A stretch of DNA of 9,859 nucleotides from Candidatus Lithacetigena glycinireducens (GTDB lineage Bacteria; Coprothermobacterota; HKB111). The stretch lies in contig QLUP01000029.1 in the NCBI GenBank assembly GCA_018725485.1, positions 1 to 9,859 of the forward strand, given 5' to 3'. The translations under genes and the position numbers were made by a program. Positions within the stretch are counted from its first letter, which is position 1. Every line of letters starts with the position of its first letter. A model generated the notes under the pieces. It worked only from the letters and a program-made list of their open reading frames with translations. It did no database searches and was not told where the DNA came from. Positions 1 to 9,141 of this stretch are shown here, one piece after another.

Positions 1-492
1 GGGAGAGTCAAACATAGTAACATTGCTTAATAAGTTAGGAAAACTGACAGTAAGGAATCTTAAGACACTCGGACATAGGGGAGGTATATACTCCCTTTTC
101 TTACCTGCTTTATCTATATACAATTTTAATAACTCCGGATAAGTTTCAAAGATTAGGCTCATATCGTAAGCTTTATTAAACCCGAGTGATTTAATAAACT
201 TGTTTACCGTAACAAAAGTAGGGGGAGGATCAAAATGTAAATAAAAAACCGGAGGTATCAACACCACTACCTTATCTCTTTCGGGAATGCTGGATATATT
301 ATCGAATATCACACCTCGGGCTTTATAAGGACAGACCCGTATACACTCTCCACAATCTATGCACCTAATTGGTAATATACGAGCTTTCCCATCTACCACC
401 CTGATAGCTTCAGTTGGGCAGTTACGAACACAATGGGTACACCCTTTACACAGATCGTCTTCAATAATAATTGAATGCATATAACCCTTCAT
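1..492 (-). CDS. Ferredoxin/[FeFe]-hydrogenase-like iron-sulfur protein, N-terminal part (cut by left window edge)
   Basis: The frame is open for 164 codons from ATG 492 to the window edge. Seen: two ferredoxin-type [4Fe-4S] motifs, C15-x2-C18-x2-C21-x3-C25-P and C44-x2-C47-x2-C50-x3-C54-P. These are followed by a segment resembling the start of the hydrogenase large-subunit H-domain (COG4624 type), with PPLCPSVLR at about 137-145 and a following FPNLL. The last matches the L1 region written TSCCPGW in catalytic [FeFe] hydrogenases; here the ligand-type Cys (C140) before Pro is kept, but the preceding proton-relay Cys is Leu139. The start is supported by an AGGAGG five bases upstream, encoded in the last two codons of the preceding gene, which ends two bases away. 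Inference: a cytoplasmic redox or H2-sensing protein rather than a turnover enzyme. The L2 and L3 cysteine motifs lie outside the window, so an H-cluster cannot be confirmed. Confidence 0.85.
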   Translation of the reverse strand, partial: MKGYMHSIIIEDDLCKGCTHCVRNCPTEAIRVVDGKARILPIRCIDCGECIRVCPYKARGVIFDNISSIPERDKVVVLIPPVFYLHFDPPPTFVTVNKFIKSLGFNKAYDMSLIFETYPELLKLYIDKAGKKREYIPPLCPSVLRFLTVSFPNLLSNVTMFDSP

Positions 493-494
493 TT

Positions 495-1376
495 CTACCT
501 CCTGGTGAGATTTACCACCGCATACACCTTGGTCCCTACGCCCACACGGCTGTCAACCTGAAAAATATCAGCATTTCTCTTTATATTTGGTAAACCCATG
601 CCGGCACCAAAACCCATCTCCCTTATATAATCCGGTGCAGTAGTAAACCCTTCCTGTAGGGCTAAATTCACATCGGGGATTCCTGGTCCTTTATCCTCAG
701 CAATCACTTCAACTTTCTCGGAGTTAACTTTGGCCTGCAGAGAACCCCTATCAGCATAGATTATAATATTCATTTCAGCTTCATAGGCTATTATACCTAT
801 TCTTCTTAAATCTTTGGGGTCTATAGATAACTGTTGAAGGGATTTCCGCATCTGCAGGGAAGCATTTCCGGCATGAACAAAATCTTTTCCTAAAATCTGG
901 TAAGTATAGCTGATTACTCCTTCTGAAGGGGTAGTTTTTTTAACAACCATCCCCGTGTCCAGGGCTTCCTGTAAAAAAGCAAATAAAGACCACCAATAAA
1001 CTACTCCTATAACTTTAAACTTATCATCAACCACGGGAAGCCGTCCAAATTTAAAGCGGTTCATTTCCCTTAGAGCTTCAATAAGGGTTTTATTTAGAAT
1101 TAAATACTTTACCGGTGTAGTCATATATTTACTTACCGGGGCTTCAAGGTCTTTATTCTCGATGCAGATAATTAAGTCGCTAATAGAAATTATACCTAAA
1201 AGATGACCTTCATCGTCAGTTATCGGAACTCCATCAAGTCTTCTAATTCTCATTAATTCTTTGACATGCCTCATCTGCCAGTAAGGAGTAACCTGAGGAA
1301 TATTCCTCACCATCACTTTTTCCACAGAGCAAGAAAGAGTTTCCTGTTCTAATTTATTAGTTGCTTCTAAGTCCAT
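495..1376 (-). CDS. Two CBS domains fused to an RsbW-like (GHKL) ATPase domain; candidate sensory serine kinase/anti-sigma-type protein
   Basis: I place the start at ATG 1376 (293 residues). A TTG at 1403 in the same frame would add nine residues but has no ribosome-binding site and deepens the overlap with the upstream gene. Domains in order: CBS1 about 18-75 (with RLDGVPITDDEGHLLGII), CBS2 about 81-140 (FGRLPVVDD), and an ATPase domain about 155-290. The ATPase shows an N-box with E199 and N203, a G1 box DKGPGI at about 228-233, and a glycine-rich lid GFGAGMGLPNI from about 255. There is no phospho-acceptor histidine domain and no membrane segment, so RsbW/SpoIIAB-type serine kinases are closer than histidine kinases. 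CBS pairs commonly bind adenine nucleotides, so control by energy charge is a reasonable inference. It overlaps the DRTGG gene by 20 bases and its last codons form the Shine-Dalgarno of the hydrogenase-like gene. The target protein is unknown. Confidence 0.88.
   Translation of the reverse strand: MDLEATNKLEQETLSCSVEKVMVRNIPQVTPYWQMRHVKELMRIRRLDGVPITDDEGHLLGIISISDLIICIENKDLEAPVSKYMTTPVKYLILNKTLIEALREMNRFKFGRLPVVDDKFKVIGVVYWWSLFAFLQEALDTGMVVKKTTPSEGVISYTYQILGKDFVHAGNASLQMRKSLQQLSIDPKDLRRIGIIAYEAEMNIIIYADRGSLQAKVNSEKVEVIAEDKGPGIPDVNLALQEGFTTAPDYIREMGFGAGMGLPNIKRNADIFQVDSRVGVGTKVYAVVNLTRR
498..503 (-). promoter_or_regulatory. Shine-Dalgarno of the hydrogenase-like gene, encoded by the final Arg codons of the CBS/ATPase gene
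   Basis: AGGAGG on the minus strand is both the last two codons (Arg-Arg) of the CBS/ATPase gene and the ribosome-binding site for ATG 492, five bases further on after the TAG stop. It fixes the start of the truncated gene and suggests tight translational linkage. Confidence 0.75.
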
Positions 1377-1698
1377 GGTAATATAAAATCCCGCAGGTTT
1401 CAAACAAAGATAAATCTGTAGATACTATAGGAATGCCTAATTCCTCGGCAAGATTTAGTATGGTATCGTCGGCTTTTTTCCCGCTTACAATGATTATGCC
1501 CACCATTCCTACCATCTCTGCTGTCCTCACAATTTGGGGAGCAGCTAAGGAGGTGATAAGAATGGCTCCTTCGGTGGGAGAGGCGAGAACATCTGACATC
1601 AGGTCTGCTGCCCAGGCTTTATTAATATCCAGATTTTCCAGATGCTGGCAAACGCATATCCTACCTTTAACTAAGTTAATAATGTTATTAAGTTTCAC
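1357..1698 (-). CDS. Stand-alone DRTGG-domain protein
   Basis: This is a 113-residue protein that covers essentially one DRTGG domain (Pfam PF07085 type) and nothing else. Recognisable parts are the N-terminal KLNNIINLVKG, a central ASDL-like segment (AADLMSDVLA), the strand GAILITSL, the hydrophobic VGMVGIIIVSGKK, and the C-terminal GIPIVSTDLSLFETCGILY. DRTGG domains occur in HPr-kinase-like and phosphotransacetylase proteins and are thought to be ligand-binding or regulatory; no enzyme activity is known for the lone form. The start is GTG 1698, set by an AAGGAG six bases upstream. It overlaps the end of valS by 11 bases and the CBS/ATPase gene by 20 bases, so the three are very likely cotranscribed. 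Its association with a GHKL ATPase and a hydrogenase-like protein suggests a role in the same signalling module (inference). Confidence 0.85.
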   Translation of the reverse strand: MKLNNIINLVKGRICVCQHLENLDINKAWAADLMSDVLASPTEGAILITSLAAPQIVRTAEMVGMVGIIIVSGKKADDTILNLAEELGIPIVSTDLSLFETCGILYYHGLRSN

Positions 1699-4330
1699 TT
1701 CCTTCTCCTTGAAGATAATTTATGGTTTCGTCAATTCTCACTATTTGCTTCTGGTACTCTTGTTCTCTTCGTTGGAATTCTTCAATGGTTGCTGGTGAGG
1801 CTTTTTCCCTGAATAAGGGATTCCTGAGATCCTTTTGGACCCTCTCCAGCTCAGTGGTTAATTCAACCAGACTTCCAGTGAGTTTTATAATTTCTTCTTT
1901 AATCTCTACCAAACCTTTTAAGTTAACAAATATGGAAGTTCCCCTGACAACCTGTATTGCAGAACTTTTAGGCCAGGTTTCCAGGTCACAAACGATGTCT
2001 AAATTTCCAATACCTGCCATCTGGGTGATGTAGTTGGAACCTTCAACTAAAGATTGGTACTCAAAAGCATCTGAGGGATGAATAACCACCTTTATGGGAC
2101 GGTTGGGCTTAATTTTGAACAGACTACGAATATTTCGAATTGCAGTAATAATACCGAAGATATAATTTGTTTTTTCCAGTGCTATTTCGCATTCAGGGAA
2201 ATCAACTTTATTAACCCAGTCCTGTATTATCAGGGGAGGTAAATTATCCTGATTAAGTTTAGACCAGAGCTCCTCAGTTATGAAAGGAATGACCGGATGC
2301 AATAAAACTAAGATGTTTTTAAGAACATAATAAAGCGTAAACAGGGTTCCCTGGCTATCTTTTTTAAATTTGGATATTTCCAGGTACCAATCACAATAAT
2401 CCTTCCAGAAGAACTCTTCAATAGCTTTGATATAATTCCCTACATCAAAAGAAGCAAATTTATCATTAACCTCCTTTACCAGATGAGATAAGCGCGATAG
2501 GATATACCTATCAAACAGGTCTAAATCAATCAGTTCAGGTGGTTTTTCAAACTTATTTTCCCCAATGGTAGAGATAACATAGCGAGATGCATTCCACAAT
2601 TTATTCATGAAGTTTCTACTATGAAGGAGTGCTGGTTTGGTTAAAGTGATATCCTGACCCCCGAGGGTGCTTAAAGAGGCCAGGGTAAACCTGAGGGCAT
2701 CAGTACCATAATCTTTTATTAAATCAAGGGGATCAAGAACATTTTTCAGAGATTTAGACATTTTTCTGCCTTTCTCATCTCTAACTAAACCATGTATGAA
2801 AACATTTTTAAACGGTGGCTTACCGGTTAACTCTAATCCTGCCATAATCATCCTGGAAACCCAGAAAGTTATTATGTCATAACCTGTGACTAAAACTGAA
2901 GTGGGATAGAAATTTTCTAAATCCGGGGTTGAATCAGGCCAACCAAAAACTGAAAAAGGCCACAAAGCAGAACTAAACCAGGTATCAAGTACATCTTCAA
3001 CTTCTTCCAGATTCTCAGAAGAACAATGAGTGCATTTTTCAGGTGTCTCCCGGGAAACGATAACCTCTCCGCAGGATTGACAAATCCAGGCTGGAATACG
3101 GTGTCCCCACCAGAGTTGCCTGGAGATGCACCAATCTTTGAGATTTTCCATCCAATCCAGGTACACAGCGGACCATCTCTCTGGAATGAAAGTTATTTCT
3201 GCATTTTTTACCTTTTCAATGGCTGCCTTTTTTATTTCTTTGACACTTAAAAACCACTGTACAGAAAGCAAGGGCTCAATAACAGTATGGCACCTGCTGC
3301 ATCTTCCCGGAGAATACCTGTAGGACTCGGTTTTTACCAATCTATTTTCCAGATTAAGTTTTTTTACCATTAATTCCCTGGCTTCCAGTGTTGATAACCC
3401 AGCAAAGTCACTGCCGGATTCCTCAGCCATGAAACCATGTTCGTTAATAACCCTAATCAGGGGAAGATTATGCCTTTTTCCCATTTCATAGTCGAGGAAA
3501 TCGTGGGCTGGGGTTACTTTTACTACACCAGACCCAAATTCTGGGTCAACCTCAGAATCAGCAATTATAGGTAATTTTCTACCGACAACTGGCAAAATGG
3601 CTACTTTTCCGACAACTGATTTATACCTCAAATCATCAGGGTGAACTGCTAAAGCAACATCCCCCAACATAGTTTCTGGCCTGGTGGTTACTATTTCTAT
3701 GTCACCACCCTGTTCGAGAGCATAGATTATTTGGTAAAGCTTTCCTTCCACCTCTTCCCTTTCCACTTCAATATCTGAGATTGCAGTATGGCAGTGCGGA
3801 CAAAGGTTGACCAGGTATTCACCCCGGTAAATATAACCCTTTTCATACATGCGGACAAAAAATTCAGTAACTGCACGAGAACATACTTCGTCAAGGGTAA
3901 ACCTTTCTCGGTTCCAGTCACAGGAAGCCCCCATTTTCTTTATCTGCGAGGTAATAGTATGGCGACACTTTTCCATCCATTGCCACATATACTCCTGGAA
4001 TGCTTTTTTCCCGATTCTGGATCTCTCTATACCCTGCTTGCGAAGCTCTTCTTCCACCACATTTTGAGCAGCAATTCCAGCATGGTCAGTTCCCGGAACC
4101 CATAGAGTGGGAATCTTTCGCAGGCGATTAATCCTAACTAAAATATCCTGCAAAGTAGCATCGAGTGCATGCCCTAAATGAAGGGAGCCGGTAACATTGG
4201 TAGGAGGTAAAACAATTACAAAAGGGGGTGAACCGGTATTATTCTGTGGTGAAAAAAAACCTTTTTCTTCCCAGAATCTATACCACTTTTCTTCTACTTC
4301 TTCTGGATTATATCTCGTGGATAAGCTCAA
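1688..4330 (-). CDS. valS: Valyl-tRNA synthetase
   Basis: This class Ia synthetase charges tRNA-Val with valine in the cytoplasm. With the start preferred here it is 880 residues, a normal bacterial length. Seen: the HIGH-type motif HLGH at about 51-54 inside PPTNVTGSLHLGHALD, KMSKS at 523-527, the CP1 editing domain containing TTRPETMLGD and TPAHDFLDYEMG, several CxxC pairs (CPHC, CSRC, CQSC, CTHC) of the usual zinc-binding regions, and a C-terminal charged coiled coil over about the last 65 residues. Start choice: a longer frame opens at TTG 4354 (888 residues). However, TTG 4330 lies six bases after GAGGTG (4342-4337) and gives MSLSTRYNPEEVEEKW, which matches the usual ValRS N-terminus, whereas the extra eight residues are encoded by the ribosome-binding region itself. 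It begins after a 52-base gap, the longest in the window, and overlaps the DRTGG gene at its end. Confidence 0.97.
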   Translation of the reverse strand: MSLSTRYNPEEVEEKWYRFWEEKGFFSPQNNTGSPPFVIVLPPTNVTGSLHLGHALDATLQDILVRINRLRKIPTLWVPGTDHAGIAAQNVVEEELRKQGIERSRIGKKAFQEYMWQWMEKCRHTITSQIKKMGASCDWNRERFTLDEVCSRAVTEFFVRMYEKGYIYRGEYLVNLCPHCHTAISDIEVEREEVEGKLYQIIYALEQGGDIEIVTTRPETMLGDVALAVHPDDLRYKSVVGKVAILPVVGRKLPIIADSEVDPEFGSGVVKVTPAHDFLDYEMGKRHNLPLIRVINEHGFMAEESGSDFAGLSTLEARELMVKKLNLENRLVKTESYRYSPGRCSRCHTVIEPLLSVQWFLSVKEIKKAAIEKVKNAEITFIPERWSAVYLDWMENLKDWCISRQLWWGHRIPAWICQSCGEVIVSRETPEKCTHCSSENLEEVEDVLDTWFSSALWPFSVFGWPDSTPDLENFYPTSVLVTGYDIITFWVSRMIMAGLELTGKPPFKNVFIHGLVRDEKGRKMSKSLKNVLDPLDLIKDYGTDALRFTLASLSTLGGQDITLTKPALLHSRNFMNKLWNASRYVISTIGENKFEKPPELIDLDLFDRYILSRLSHLVKEVNDKFASFDVGNYIKAIEEFFWKDYCDWYLEISKFKKDSQGTLFTLYYVLKNILVLLHPVIPFITEELWSKLNQDNLPPLIIQDWVNKVDFPECEIALEKTNYIFGIITAIRNIRSLFKIKPNRPIKVVIHPSDAFEYQSLVEGSNYITQMAGIGNLDIVCDLETWPKSSAIQVVRGTSIFVNLKGLVEIKEEIIKLTGSLVELTTELERVQKDLRNPLFREKASPATIEEFQRREQEYQKQIVRIDETINYLQGEGSET

Positions 4331-4336
4331 TACATT

Positions 4337-4342
4337 CACCTC
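4337..4342 (-). promoter_or_regulatory. Shine-Dalgarno that decides the valS start
   Basis: GAGGTG on the minus strand sits six bases before TTG 4330. If TTG 4354 were the start, this sequence would be coding and no comparable site precedes it. It supports the shorter 880-residue ValRS. Confidence 0.7.
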
Positions 4343-4354
4343 ATTAGAGCTCAA

Positions 4355-4382: not shown

Positions 4383-5036
4383 TTATTTTCCTGCAATAGT
4401 TTGCAGTATTTCCCAGTACATCTTCAAGTGAGATAGAAACCCTCGCCAAAATCCAATTTTTTCTACCTTCATAACCTGGGAAACCCCAAATAAATATACC
4501 TTTTTTTCCTGGAGACGCATTTTTCGGATATTTCTGTAAATCAAGACCTCGATAGCATAACCTTTTCCCTGCAGGGAATCCTTCATTAAAAAAAAGGTTT
4601 CTCTCTTTATTGCTCGCTGGGAATTTAAGGCTGGAGTTATGGCTTGAGTAAAGTCGGTTACCAGTCTTCCACCTTTAAATACTCCAAGGGAAGTATCAGC
4701 TTCTCCAGCAAACACAGGGGTTAACAAGGAATCAATGTGGTATGGTTTGAGATTGATAATATCAGCATCTATAAACAGCAATACATCATAACTGGAAAGT
4801 TTTGCACCGGTAATCAAAGCATTGCTTTTACCTGAATTTATTTTTAACTCTACCAGATAAGCACCATTATTGATAGTTGAATCAGATGTCATATCGGTTG
4901 ACCCATCGTTGACAACTATTACTTCCCCTACTAACTTAGACTGGATTACCGCCTGGATAACCTGCCCTATTCTTGGACCTTCATTATAGGCAGGAATAAT
5001 TACTGAGGCTTTTCTTTCAATAAACTGCTTAACCAT
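4383..5036 (-). CDS. Family-2 glycosyltransferase (GT-A fold)
   Basis: The 217-residue protein has GT2 hallmarks: SVIIPAYNEG at 11-20, the nucleotide-binding VVNDGSTD at about 41-48, and the metal-binding FIDADI with D90 and D92. The remainder (FKGGRLVTDFTQ, then a C-terminal HLKMYWEIL near 203-211) resembles a short soluble GT2 group I recall from Clostridia, related to glucosyl-3-phosphoglycerate synthase and polyprenyl-phosphate sugar transferases. No membrane segment is seen, so a cytoplasmic or peripheral enzyme is likely. It uses a nucleotide-sugar donor; donor and acceptor cannot be read from the sequence. ATG 5036 is the only sensible start because the PAYNE motif follows within 15 residues. 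The gene overlaps the end of ispG by 37 bases, which implies cotranslation. Position next to ispG and cdsA is compatible with a lipid or polyprenyl-phosphate acceptor, but that is speculative. Confidence 0.88.
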   Translation of the reverse strand: MVKQFIERKASVIIPAYNEGPRIGQVIQAVIQSKLVGEVIVVNDGSTDMTSDSTINNGAYLVELKINSGKSNALITGAKLSSYDVLLFIDADIINLKPYHIDSLLTPVFAGEADTSLGVFKGGRLVTDFTQAITPALNSQRAIKRETFFLMKDSLQGKGYAIEVLIYRNIRKMRLQEKKVYLFGVSQVMKVEKIGFWRGFLSHLKMYWEILQTIAGK

Positions 5037-6046
5037 TTTAAGGCTTCGTCCTGAGTTTTAATTCCTTGAAAAACACCTTTTATGGACACTACAATTCCCT
5101 CAGGGGAACCAAATAGACCTATATCAGCGCCTTTTGCTTCACCTGGGCCATTGATTTCGCATCCCATAACCGCTAAGGTGTAATTTTCCTGTAAATCACC
5201 GATCAACTCGTTTACGAGGGTTGCCAGTTTTAATACATCAATTCTCATTCGGCTGCAACCCGGACAGGAAATTAGATTTATCCCCTTTACCTTTTTTCTT
5301 ATATTATTAAGAATCGCTTTCGCTACTTCAATCTCTTTAATTGGTCCATCGGTTAGGGATACCCTTATGGTATTGCCAATTCCTCTAAACAGCAGATAAC
5401 CGATACTCATAGATGACTTAACCATACCAGGTAAACCTAATCCTGCTTCAGTAAGTCCTATATGTAGTGGGTAATCCATAAGAGAAGAAATTTTTTCATT
5501 AATAATGATATTGTTTTCCACCTGAGAATCTTTAGCAGAAACCATAAGATTTTTCTGGCCAGCAGTTTCAAAAATATCCAGAGTTTTCATTAACTCCTGT
5601 TCAATTATTGATACCAGATCCCTGTTTCTTAGTGCAAGAGAACCAGAATTAAGCCCAACTCTTACAGCAACATTATAATCAACCGAGGCAGAGGCGATTT
5701 CTTTTAATCCATTAATGTGAGTGTTACCAGGATTAACCCTGACCATAGAAAAACCCTGTTGAGCAGATAATACGCCTAACCGGGGGTCTTTGTGAATATC
5801 TGCTATGACCGGTAGAGAAACATTATTTTTAATTAACCTAAAAGCTTCAACTTCTTCAGCAGACTTAACTGCAACCCGTAGAATGTCTGCTCCCGCTTGT
5901 TCTATTTCAGTATACTCCTGTAAAAACTCTTTTTTATGGAGAAGGCTAACACGAGACATCGTTTCAATTAATACAGGAAAGTTACCCCCAACTATTAAAT
6001 TTCCTAATTTAATGGTACGGGTAATTTTTTCTGGGATAAATATCAA
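5000..6046 (-). CDS. ispG: 4-hydroxy-3-methylbut-2-en-1-yl diphosphate synthase (GcpE)
   Basis: IspG is the [4Fe-4S] enzyme that converts MEcPP to HMBPP in the MEP isoprenoid pathway, using reduced ferredoxin or flavodoxin. At 348 residues it is the short bacterial type. Seen: IADIHKDPRL and VRVNPGN of the TIM-barrel domain, the cluster ligands C261, C264 (CPGC) and C296, and E303 in CEINGPGEAKGADIG. The spacing matches the E. coli set C270/C273/C305/E312. The start is TTG 6046, sharing TTGA with the rseP stop; AGGAG six bases upstream supports it. The Shine-Dalgarno is embedded in an inverted repeat described separately. The dxr gene that usually accompanies it between cdsA and rseP is absent here. 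Confidence 0.97.
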   Translation of the reverse strand: MIFIPEKITRTIKLGNLIVGGNFPVLIETMSRVSLLHKKEFLQEYTEIEQAGADILRVAVKSAEEVEAFRLIKNNVSLPVIADIHKDPRLGVLSAQQGFSMVRVNPGNTHINGLKEIASASVDYNVAVRVGLNSGSLALRNRDLVSIIEQELMKTLDIFETAGQKNLMVSAKDSQVENNIIINEKISSLMDYPLHIGLTEAGLGLPGMVKSSMSIGYLLFRGIGNTIRVSLTDGPIKEIEVAKAILNNIRKKVKGINLISCPGCSRMRIDVLKLATLVNELIGDLQENYTLAVMGCEINGPGEAKGADIGLFGSPEGIVVSIKGVFQGIKTQDEALKWLSSLLKEKPQ

Positions 6047-8412: not shown

Positions 8413-9141
8413 TTACTTTATGCTGGTACCTATTTTTTCTCCTAAAACTACTTTAACAATATTTCCTGGATCATCGCCATTAAAAACGATTATCTTCATT
8501 TTATGATCTCGAGATAAGGATACTGCTGTGGAATCCATAGCTCCCAATGTTTTCATCAAGACATCGTTATAGGTAATTTCATCATATTTTATAGCAAGGG
8601 TTTCCTTGTTAGGGTCAGCATCATAAATTCCATCAACCTTATTTTTGGCCATGAGTAAAGCTTCCGCTCCAATTTCTACTGCTCTTAAAGCAGCAGCTGT
8701 ATCGGTAGTAAAAAAGGGATTACCTGTTCCTGCAGCAAAAATAACTACCCTTCCCTTTTCAAGATGCCTTATCGCTCTTCGTAAAATAAAAGGTTCTGCT
8801 ACTTCACGCATTTCAATGGCTGATAAAACCCTGGTTTGAATGCCCTTGTTTTCAAGGACTCCCTGAAAAGCAAGAGCATTGATTACTGTAGCTAACATTC
8901 CCATGTAATCAGAAACAGATCTATTAATACCCATAGCATTGCCTTCCAGACCTCGCCAAAGATTGCCACCACCTACGATTACTCCTACTTGAACTCCCAT
9001 CAATACAATTTCCTTCACCGCATCAGCATTATCAGCTACTGTTTTAAAATGGATGCCCTGAATGTCAGGTCCGGAAAAAGCTCCACCACTTAGTTTAAGT
9101 ACTATCCTTTTATAAAGTGGTTTTATAGAAGAACCAGCCAT
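8413..9141 (-). CDS. pyrH: Uridylate kinase (UMP kinase)
   Basis: This amino-acid-kinase-family enzyme phosphorylates UMP to UDP and is a control point of pyrimidine synthesis. It is 242 residues, the normal size. Seen: YKRIVLKLSG at 10-19, VGGGNLWRG at about 56-64, the DYMGM helix at 78-82, GTGNPFFTTDTAA at about 138-150, DGIYDADP at about 170-177, and the C-terminal GEKIGTSI. An oddity: the motif normally written KLSGEAL reads KLSGGAF, so a usual Glu is Gly20. The start is ATG 9141, two bases after the tsf stop; no clear Shine-Dalgarno precedes it, so it probably depends on ribosomes ending tsf. Confidence 0.97.
   Translation of the reverse strand: MAGSSIKPLYKRIVLKLSGGAFSGPDIQGIHFKTVADNADAVKEIVLMGVQVGVIVGGGNLWRGLEGNAMGINRSVSDYMGMLATVINALAFQGVLENKGIQTRVLSAIEMREVAEPFILRRAIRHLEKGRVVIFAAGTGNPFFTTDTAAALRAVEIGAEALLMAKNKVDGIYDADPNKETLAIKYDEITYNDVLMKTLGAMDSTAVSLSRDHKMKIIVFNGDDPGNIVKVVLGEKIGTSIK

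Follow-up and report, generated by a model that had tools for sequence, protein, structure and literature searches.

The stretch of DNA that we analysed, referred to here as the window, is 9,859 nucleotides long and constitutes an entire contig (C127) of a 1.24-Mb metagenome-assembled genome (G000; 204 contigs, 83% complete). Our dataset contained nine genomes of its phylum, and the sole other genome of its genus was G008 (93% complete). At the left end of the window, three genes lie on the minus strand downstream of tsf-pyrH-frr-cdsA-rseP-ispG-GT2-valS. The first, DRTGG1 (1357–1698), overlaps the co-directional valS gene (1688–4354) by 11 bp and encodes a 113-residue protein that matched PF07085 with 30.5 bits, against a cut-off of 25.2. 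It overlaps by 47 bp a gene (495–1403) for a 302-residue fusion of two CBS domains (PF00571 twice, 79 bits) with a kinase whose HATPase domain scored above the cut-offs of both PF02518 and PF13581. After a gap of 2 bp follows the 5′ part of a third gene, hydS (1–492), whose 164 residues include two 4Fe-4S motifs and the start of an H-domain with its L1 cysteine, C140. This fragment scored 19.8 bits for PF02906, slightly below the cut-off of 22.1, because the gene is cut by the contig end. The original prediction, made from the letters of the window, had described three overlapping or abutting genes for a DRTGG domain, a CBS-ATPase fusion and an Fe-S/H-domain protein, and the three genes are located where that prediction placed them. 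Further upstream, the product of ispG (5000–6046) fell below both NCBIfam equivalog cut-offs (303 against 345 bits, and 260 against 280 bits) and represents a divergent IspG.

Positions 1–77 of the window overlap exactly with the beginning of another contig of the same genome (G000:C2). These 77 bp join the two contigs, and the hydS reading frame is continuous across them. The remainder of hydS (L005:1–866) completes a protein of 426 residues. Both the second DRTGG match and the second H-domain match of the genome were located at the start of C2, and the joined gene order was valS, DRTGG1, CBS2-kinase, HydS, DRTGG2, PHP and RnfCDGEAB, with the PHP and RnfC genes overlapping by 11 bp. The Rnf genes are six consecutive open reading frames (L005:1946–6781) that were named from their sequences rather than by family models. 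Rnf complexes couple the oxidation of ferredoxin to the reduction of NAD and the pumping of ions. Past rnfB, MEMO, AMMECR1 and radical-SAM genes lie between it and an apbE-like gene (L005:6771–10085), the latter at 9072–10085 and also named from its sequence. We consider the join to be safe because G008 has the identical run, Rnf included, uninterrupted on a single contig (L012). The three genes predicted to form a cassette are thus real, but they are part of a set of five; a PHP-domain protein, one of the partners that had been suggested to lie just to the left of the window, is present both on C2 and in G008. In the window genus, the cassette adjoins Rnf and not a hydrogenase.

To determine how widely the cassette occurs, a HydS profile was scanned over 84,980 species genomes, and the best 80 loci listed were analysed together with our own, giving 83 surveyed loci. 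The five-gene cassette (DRTGG1, kinase, HydS, DRTGG2 and PHP) was complete in 73 of these 83 best-scoring and own loci, with median intergenic gaps of −4, 24, 7 and −1 bp. An order that is complete in so many loci, with genes that overlap or nearly do so, is not a product of chance; the neighbourhood is conserved. HydB followed the cassette on the same strand in 44 of the 83 loci, many of the others being cut by contig ends, and the usual neighbour of the cassette in the surveyed loci was the bifurcating HydABC. The expectation that such gene sets occur beside hydrogenases in fermentative anaerobes thus describes the usual case in these loci, but not the window, where Rnf takes that place. Coprothermobacter has this cassette with an unfused kinase, and the genes that come after the five encode HydC, a second GHKL protein, a thioredoxin-like ferredoxin, HydB and HydA, in that order.

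Since the best 80 loci are biased towards relatives of the query, we searched a further 386 genomes, nearly all of other phyla, and identified HydS in 39 of them. The contexts of the cassette in this second survey again included HydABC. In three loci (L165, L168 and L170) the cassette accompanied NuoE/NuoF-type genes and molybdopterin subunits. In three others (L143–L145, from G085, G227 and G356) it was found with HydBC in the absence of HydA, the CBS-kinase and an extra DRTGG1-like gene being followed by HydC-GHKL-ferredoxin-HydB. The arrangement at L154 (2646–11548) comprised the cassette, HydC, GHKL, ferredoxin and HydB, then directly RnfD, RnfE and RnfA; no RnfC or HydA was seen at that locus, and its genes possibly encode a NuoEF-Rnf hybrid complex. 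Two Clostridia metagenome-assembled genomes had rnf genes upstream of the cassette, but these count for little as they were 2.8 and 6.8 kb distant with other genes intervening. Abutment of the cassette and Rnf was therefore observed in the window genus and, in a different form, in family f48. Three unrelated lineages (the window, L147 and L154) have a valS-like gene adjoining the cassette or in its vicinity.

The kinase of the cassette has the features of SpoIIAB/RsbW-type GHKL proteins, which phosphorylate a serine of a small partner protein. Its catalytic boxes (the N-box E and N, the G1 box DxGxG and the glycine-rich G2 box GFGxGxGL) were invariant in 115 kinases, and residues 162–301 of the modelled window protein matched SpoIIAB with a Z score of 19.1 and an rmsd of 1.8 Å over 134 residues, as was anticipated when the domain was termed an RsbW-like ATPase. 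CBS pairs are adenylate binders, and residues 21–148 of the model matched CBS pairs with Z scores of 14–16, including AMP-bound CBSX2, AcuB and AMPK gamma. The modelled fold is consistent with the adenylate-binding type that had been proposed, although by our reading of the sequence the ribose motif S/T-x-x-D is present in CBS1 and missing from CBS2. The pTM of the whole CBS-kinase model was 0.52, such that the relative placement of its two halves is uncertain. Fusion of a CBS pair to the kinase recurs in families f80 and f48, and in L165 and L170 the kinase gene is instead fused to DRTGG1, which points to a direct partnership between these two proteins.

Both DRTGG proteins of the cassette are of an unusual type. 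They lack the GDR/GNR-type loop of other DRTGG domains, the window DRTGG1 having T-S-L-A-A-P at the GDR site, and they have a D-L-x-S motif whose serine was identical in all sequences compared (S35 in 109 DRTGG1 proteins and S34 in 107 DRTGG2 proteins). In longer proteins (Pta-like, BioD-like and CBS-pyrophosphatase-like) and in AF_1212, the DRTGG domain mostly has I-G-A-M at this site. In the window the motif is D-L-M-S, encoded by codons 32–35 of DRTGG1 (1594–1605, minus strand), and Ser35 is a candidate phospho-acceptor. The missing GDR motif and the invariant serine make it doubtful that these are ligand-binding domains, as had been suggested. PHP proteins are phosphoesterases, and all ten metal ligands (D11, H13, H15, D47, H48, E73, H81, H159, D206 and H208) were conserved in each of 102 PHP proteins, those of the window lineage included.

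The iron-sulfur protein is a homologue of the group D (M2e) [FeFe]-hydrogenase HydS, and has the architecture of that group: two N-terminal [4Fe-4S] motifs with eight cysteines, an H-domain, a C-terminal Cx2Cx4Cx16C motif and no PAS domain. One member of the family has been characterised, TamHydS of Thermoanaerobacter mathranii (PMC8163306, PMC10407848, PMC11803613, PMC13104023), and in HydS of T. wiegelii the residues A137, S191, E252 and L291 have exactly the positions that have been published for TamHydS. Using this numbering, we found that HydS of the window and of G008 retained all 16 ligand cysteines, namely eight in the F-domain, the four of the [4Fe-4S]H cluster (equivalents of C138, C193, C293 and C297) and the four of Cx2Cx4Cx16C.

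By contrast with the cluster ligands, the residues of the diiron pocket and of the group D proton path (S/T191, P192, K196, E252 and D265) were largely lost, reading A, N, Q, Q and G in the window and T, T, Q, E and C in G008. K196 was a lysine in 83 of 83 relatives, and is a glutamine in both the window and G008. P192 was conserved in 82 of the 83, and is asparagine in the window and threonine in G008, and D265 was conserved in 81, being replaced by glycine and cysteine, respectively. E252, also conserved in 81, is glutamine in the window; of two alignments, one gave a glutamate in G008 and the other a loss. The A/S at position 137 was lost from both proteins in comparison with the 83 relatives. 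Identity of HydS to the family consensus was 61% in the F-domain and 53% in the C-terminal domain, and fell to 26% in the H-domain. The predicted structure of G008 HydS (pLDDT 88.9) nevertheless matched [FeFe] hydrogenases with Z scores of up to 30.6 and 3.0 Å over 328 residues. On the evidence of the model and of the residue comparisons, the H-domain fold is retained in HydS of the window genus and its H-site is lost. Hence, we regard the window protein as a homologue or descendant of these enzymes rather than as an H2-active hydrogenase; an ordinary catalytic hydrogenase it is not. As an aside, the HydS match of G111 (L146, G111:C40) contains one in-frame TGA.

The original prediction suggested that H2 or electron status is read by this protein. 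In other bacteria, where the cassette lies beside H2-producing enzymes, it is a presumed hydrogen sensor. Of these, H2 is an unlikely input in the window genome because the H-site is degenerate and the maturases HydF and HydG were not found. As the clusters have been kept and the H2-binding site has not, HydS of the window genus probably senses electron supply rather than hydrogen.

Based on these observations, we tentatively favour, as the best single explanation, that the cassette is a signalling companion of low-potential NADH/ferredoxin oxidoreductases that in the window genus has been redeployed from an [FeFe]-hydrogenase to Rnf, where it would act as a phospho-switch. Through its [4Fe-4S] clusters, HydS would signal how oxidised or reduced the ferredoxin pool is, the CBS pair would report AMP/ATP, and the two inputs would jointly determine how active the SpoIIAB-like serine kinase is. 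This enzyme would phosphorylate the invariant D-L-x-S serine of DRTGG1 and DRTGG2, which would stand in for STAS anti-anti-sigma proteins, and PHP, with its full set of metal ligands, would take the role of a PP2C phosphatase and dephosphorylate them. The phosphorylation state of the DRTGG proteins would then adjust the expression or activity of Rnf. This scheme builds on the gene anatomy, linkage, residue conservation and selection observed here, from which we infer the signal, the phosphorylation and the target through what is known of the protein families. How HydS would pass on its signal is constrained by TamHydS, whose C-terminal cluster does not change its redox state under H2 (PMC13104023). 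A simple relay through that cluster is therefore doubtful, and the signal must travel by way of another cluster or a conformational change.

An alternative that we consider unlikely, yet worth weighing seriously, is that the cassette takes no part in transcriptional signalling and that its proteins together either assist the assembly of flavin/Fe-S oxidoreductases (HydBC, formate-dehydrogenase-like complexes and Rnf) or restrain them allosterically, with HydS giving or withdrawing electrons. The distribution of the cassette is consistent with this, since it tracks the NuoE/NuoF-type module whichever terminal enzyme is present, be it HydA, the molybdopterin subunits of L165, L168 and L170 or the Rnf subunits of L154. 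In addition, no transcription factor or other DNA-binding protein is encoded in the cassette. However, a kinase combined with a phosphoesterase and an invariant serine resembles signalling, and the catalytic residues are perfectly conserved.

Classical partner switching is an improbable explanation. The kinase would in that case be an anti-sigma factor, or would act on a sigma factor or STAS protein whose gene lies elsewhere, with DRTGG and PHP serving only as ligand sensors or accessory enzymes. The nearest sequence and structure matches of the kinase are indeed SpoIIAB bound to SpoIIAA or sigma F. Yet no gene for a STAS anti-anti-sigma protein or a sigma factor was present in any of the cassettes or flanks that we examined, and the conserved partners are instead the invariant-serine DRTGG proteins, one of which has twice been fused to the kinase.

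It is very unlikely that HydS of the window genus is still a true H2 sensor with an H-cluster that is matured by an unrecognised route. The four [4Fe-4S]H cysteines and the H-domain fold have been retained, and the genus does have an H2 metabolism in the form of a Hox-type [NiFe] hydrogenase operon with hyp maturation genes (L211:822–12641 and L212:165–8049). On the other hand, HydS has lost residues that hold the diiron site in place and tune it (K196, P192 and D265, and S/T191 in the window), and neither HydF nor HydG was found in G000 (83% complete) or G008 (93% complete), although both are present in three Coprothermobacter genomes. A second, genuine [FeFe] hydrogenase in G008 (C200, L108), beside a Rex-like repressor gene, was set aside as probable contamination (GC content of 51.2% compared to 37.7%).

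Whether maturases are found is an imperfect guide to the state of the pocket. Loss of the pocket as a simple result of maturase loss was rejected as a rule: K196 was lost in the HydG-positive loci L146, L152 and L155 and kept in the HydG-negative loci L153, L156, L161, L165, L168–L170 and L173, the pocket being intact in L153 and L156. With mismatches in both directions, the two do not track one another cleanly. Neither HydF nor an above-cut-off HydG was found in 15 of 33 HydS-bearing genomes that were at least 90% complete, and in nine of these 15 (G227, G169, G328, G053, G156, G304, G294, G142 and G187) HydS was the only H-domain protein found. G086, G085 and G356 had a strong second H-domain protein and HydF was not found in them, for which divergent or missed maturases are a possible explanation. 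HydA-type H-domain proteins of 348 and 344 bits were identified at L178 (G005:C2, about 165 kb) and in G086, respectively; HydF and HydG were not found in G005 (95% complete) or G086 (92% complete). These strong H-domain proteins may reflect an assembly gap or an unrecognised maturation, and make an unrecognised or missed route conceivable for the window genus as well.

The notion that the cassette is a decaying relic of a hydrogenase operon draws on the degenerate H-site and on the long branch of the window HydS in the HydS tree (1.83 changes per column), and is disfavoured to the point of being extremely unlikely, as dN/dS between G000 and G008 was 0.06 for DRTGG1, 0.10 for the CBS-kinase, 0.13 for HydS (0.18 for its H-domain), 0.06 for DRTGG2 and 0.18 for PHP, in the range of valS (0.11) and RnfC (0.15), the cassette genes had no frameshifts or stops, and all other motifs were kept. 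Purifying selection acts on each of the five genes. Long branches also make the placement of the window in the HydS tree unsure. A derivation of the window-genus HydS from that of Coprothermobacter was unsupported, as the latter groups with Thermoanaerobacter. The CBS fusion requires two changes on this tree, and a single origin is still conceivable.

The closest known systems share some features with the cassette and differ from it in others. TamHydS has the same domain order as the window HydS, and its T. wiegelii homologue, identically numbered at the residues checked, lies in the same five-gene cassette, flanked by the SpoIIAB-like kinase and DRTGG2, the latter with no AraC or HTH match. 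The window protein differs from it in the lost pocket and proton-path residues, in the maturases not found and in being linked to Rnf instead of HydABC. Partner-switching systems of the SpoIIAB/RsbW type share the fold and catalytic boxes of the kinase, but have STAS neighbours and PP2C where the cassette has DRTGG and PHP; the N-terminal CBS pair is a feature of the kinases of the window genus, f80 and f48. The regulatory module of CBS-pyrophosphatases (CBS-DRTGG-CBS) uses both domain types together, as the cassette does, and 3l2b/3l31 was the best DRTGG match among solved structures. In the cassette, however, the domains are encoded by separate genes, the CBS pair is fused to a kinase rather than a pyrophosphatase, and the DRTGG proteins have D-L-x-S and lack GDR.

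An operon of Halanaerobium hydrogeniformans (Halsa_1862-1871) has been listed with HydA, NuoF, a ferredoxin, a histidine kinase, NuoE, PHP, Fe-S and hydrogenase-like proteins and an anti-sigma kinase (PMC4237134). Its gene order is similar to that of the cassette loci, and it was listed with no function proposed; unlike the window it is beside a hydrogenase and has no Rnf, and a CBS fusion is not mentioned. Open-licence full texts contained no description of the five-gene unit, the D-L-x-S type of DRTGG, the CBS fusion or the Rnf-linked form lacking an H-site, and on DRTGG and hydrogenase together they yielded one unrelated paper. In the literature searched the cassette is thus undescribed as a unit, pieces of the operon having already been listed. 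That these gene sets have no established function is true of the cassette, but the biochemistry of the sensor itself has been studied in group D HydS, specifically TamHydS (PMC8163306, PMC13104023).

How group D HydS passes on its signal is an acknowledged question, the identification of its interaction partners being considered critical in a 2026 paper (PMC13104023). Four candidate partners emerge from the conserved cassette, together with a serine that can be tested. The window genus represents a natural experiment in which the sensor has been kept, the H2 site has gone and the linked enzyme has changed from a hydrogenase to Rnf. More broadly, and with a good deal of doubt, we speculate that the group D “sensory hydrogenases” may at root not be H2 sensors, and may instead provide the Fe-S redox signal to a widely distributed phospho-switch. 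This switch would tune flavin-based NADH/ferredoxin machines, namely HydABC, NAD-linked formate-dehydrogenase-like complexes and Rnf, with H2 sensing a special case that was lost in several lineages. H2 sensing is unlikely to be a general role of the HydS family, and confirmation of our explanation would establish this. It would also reveal a new kind of redox and energy switch for the ion-pumping and bifurcating enzymes of anaerobes.
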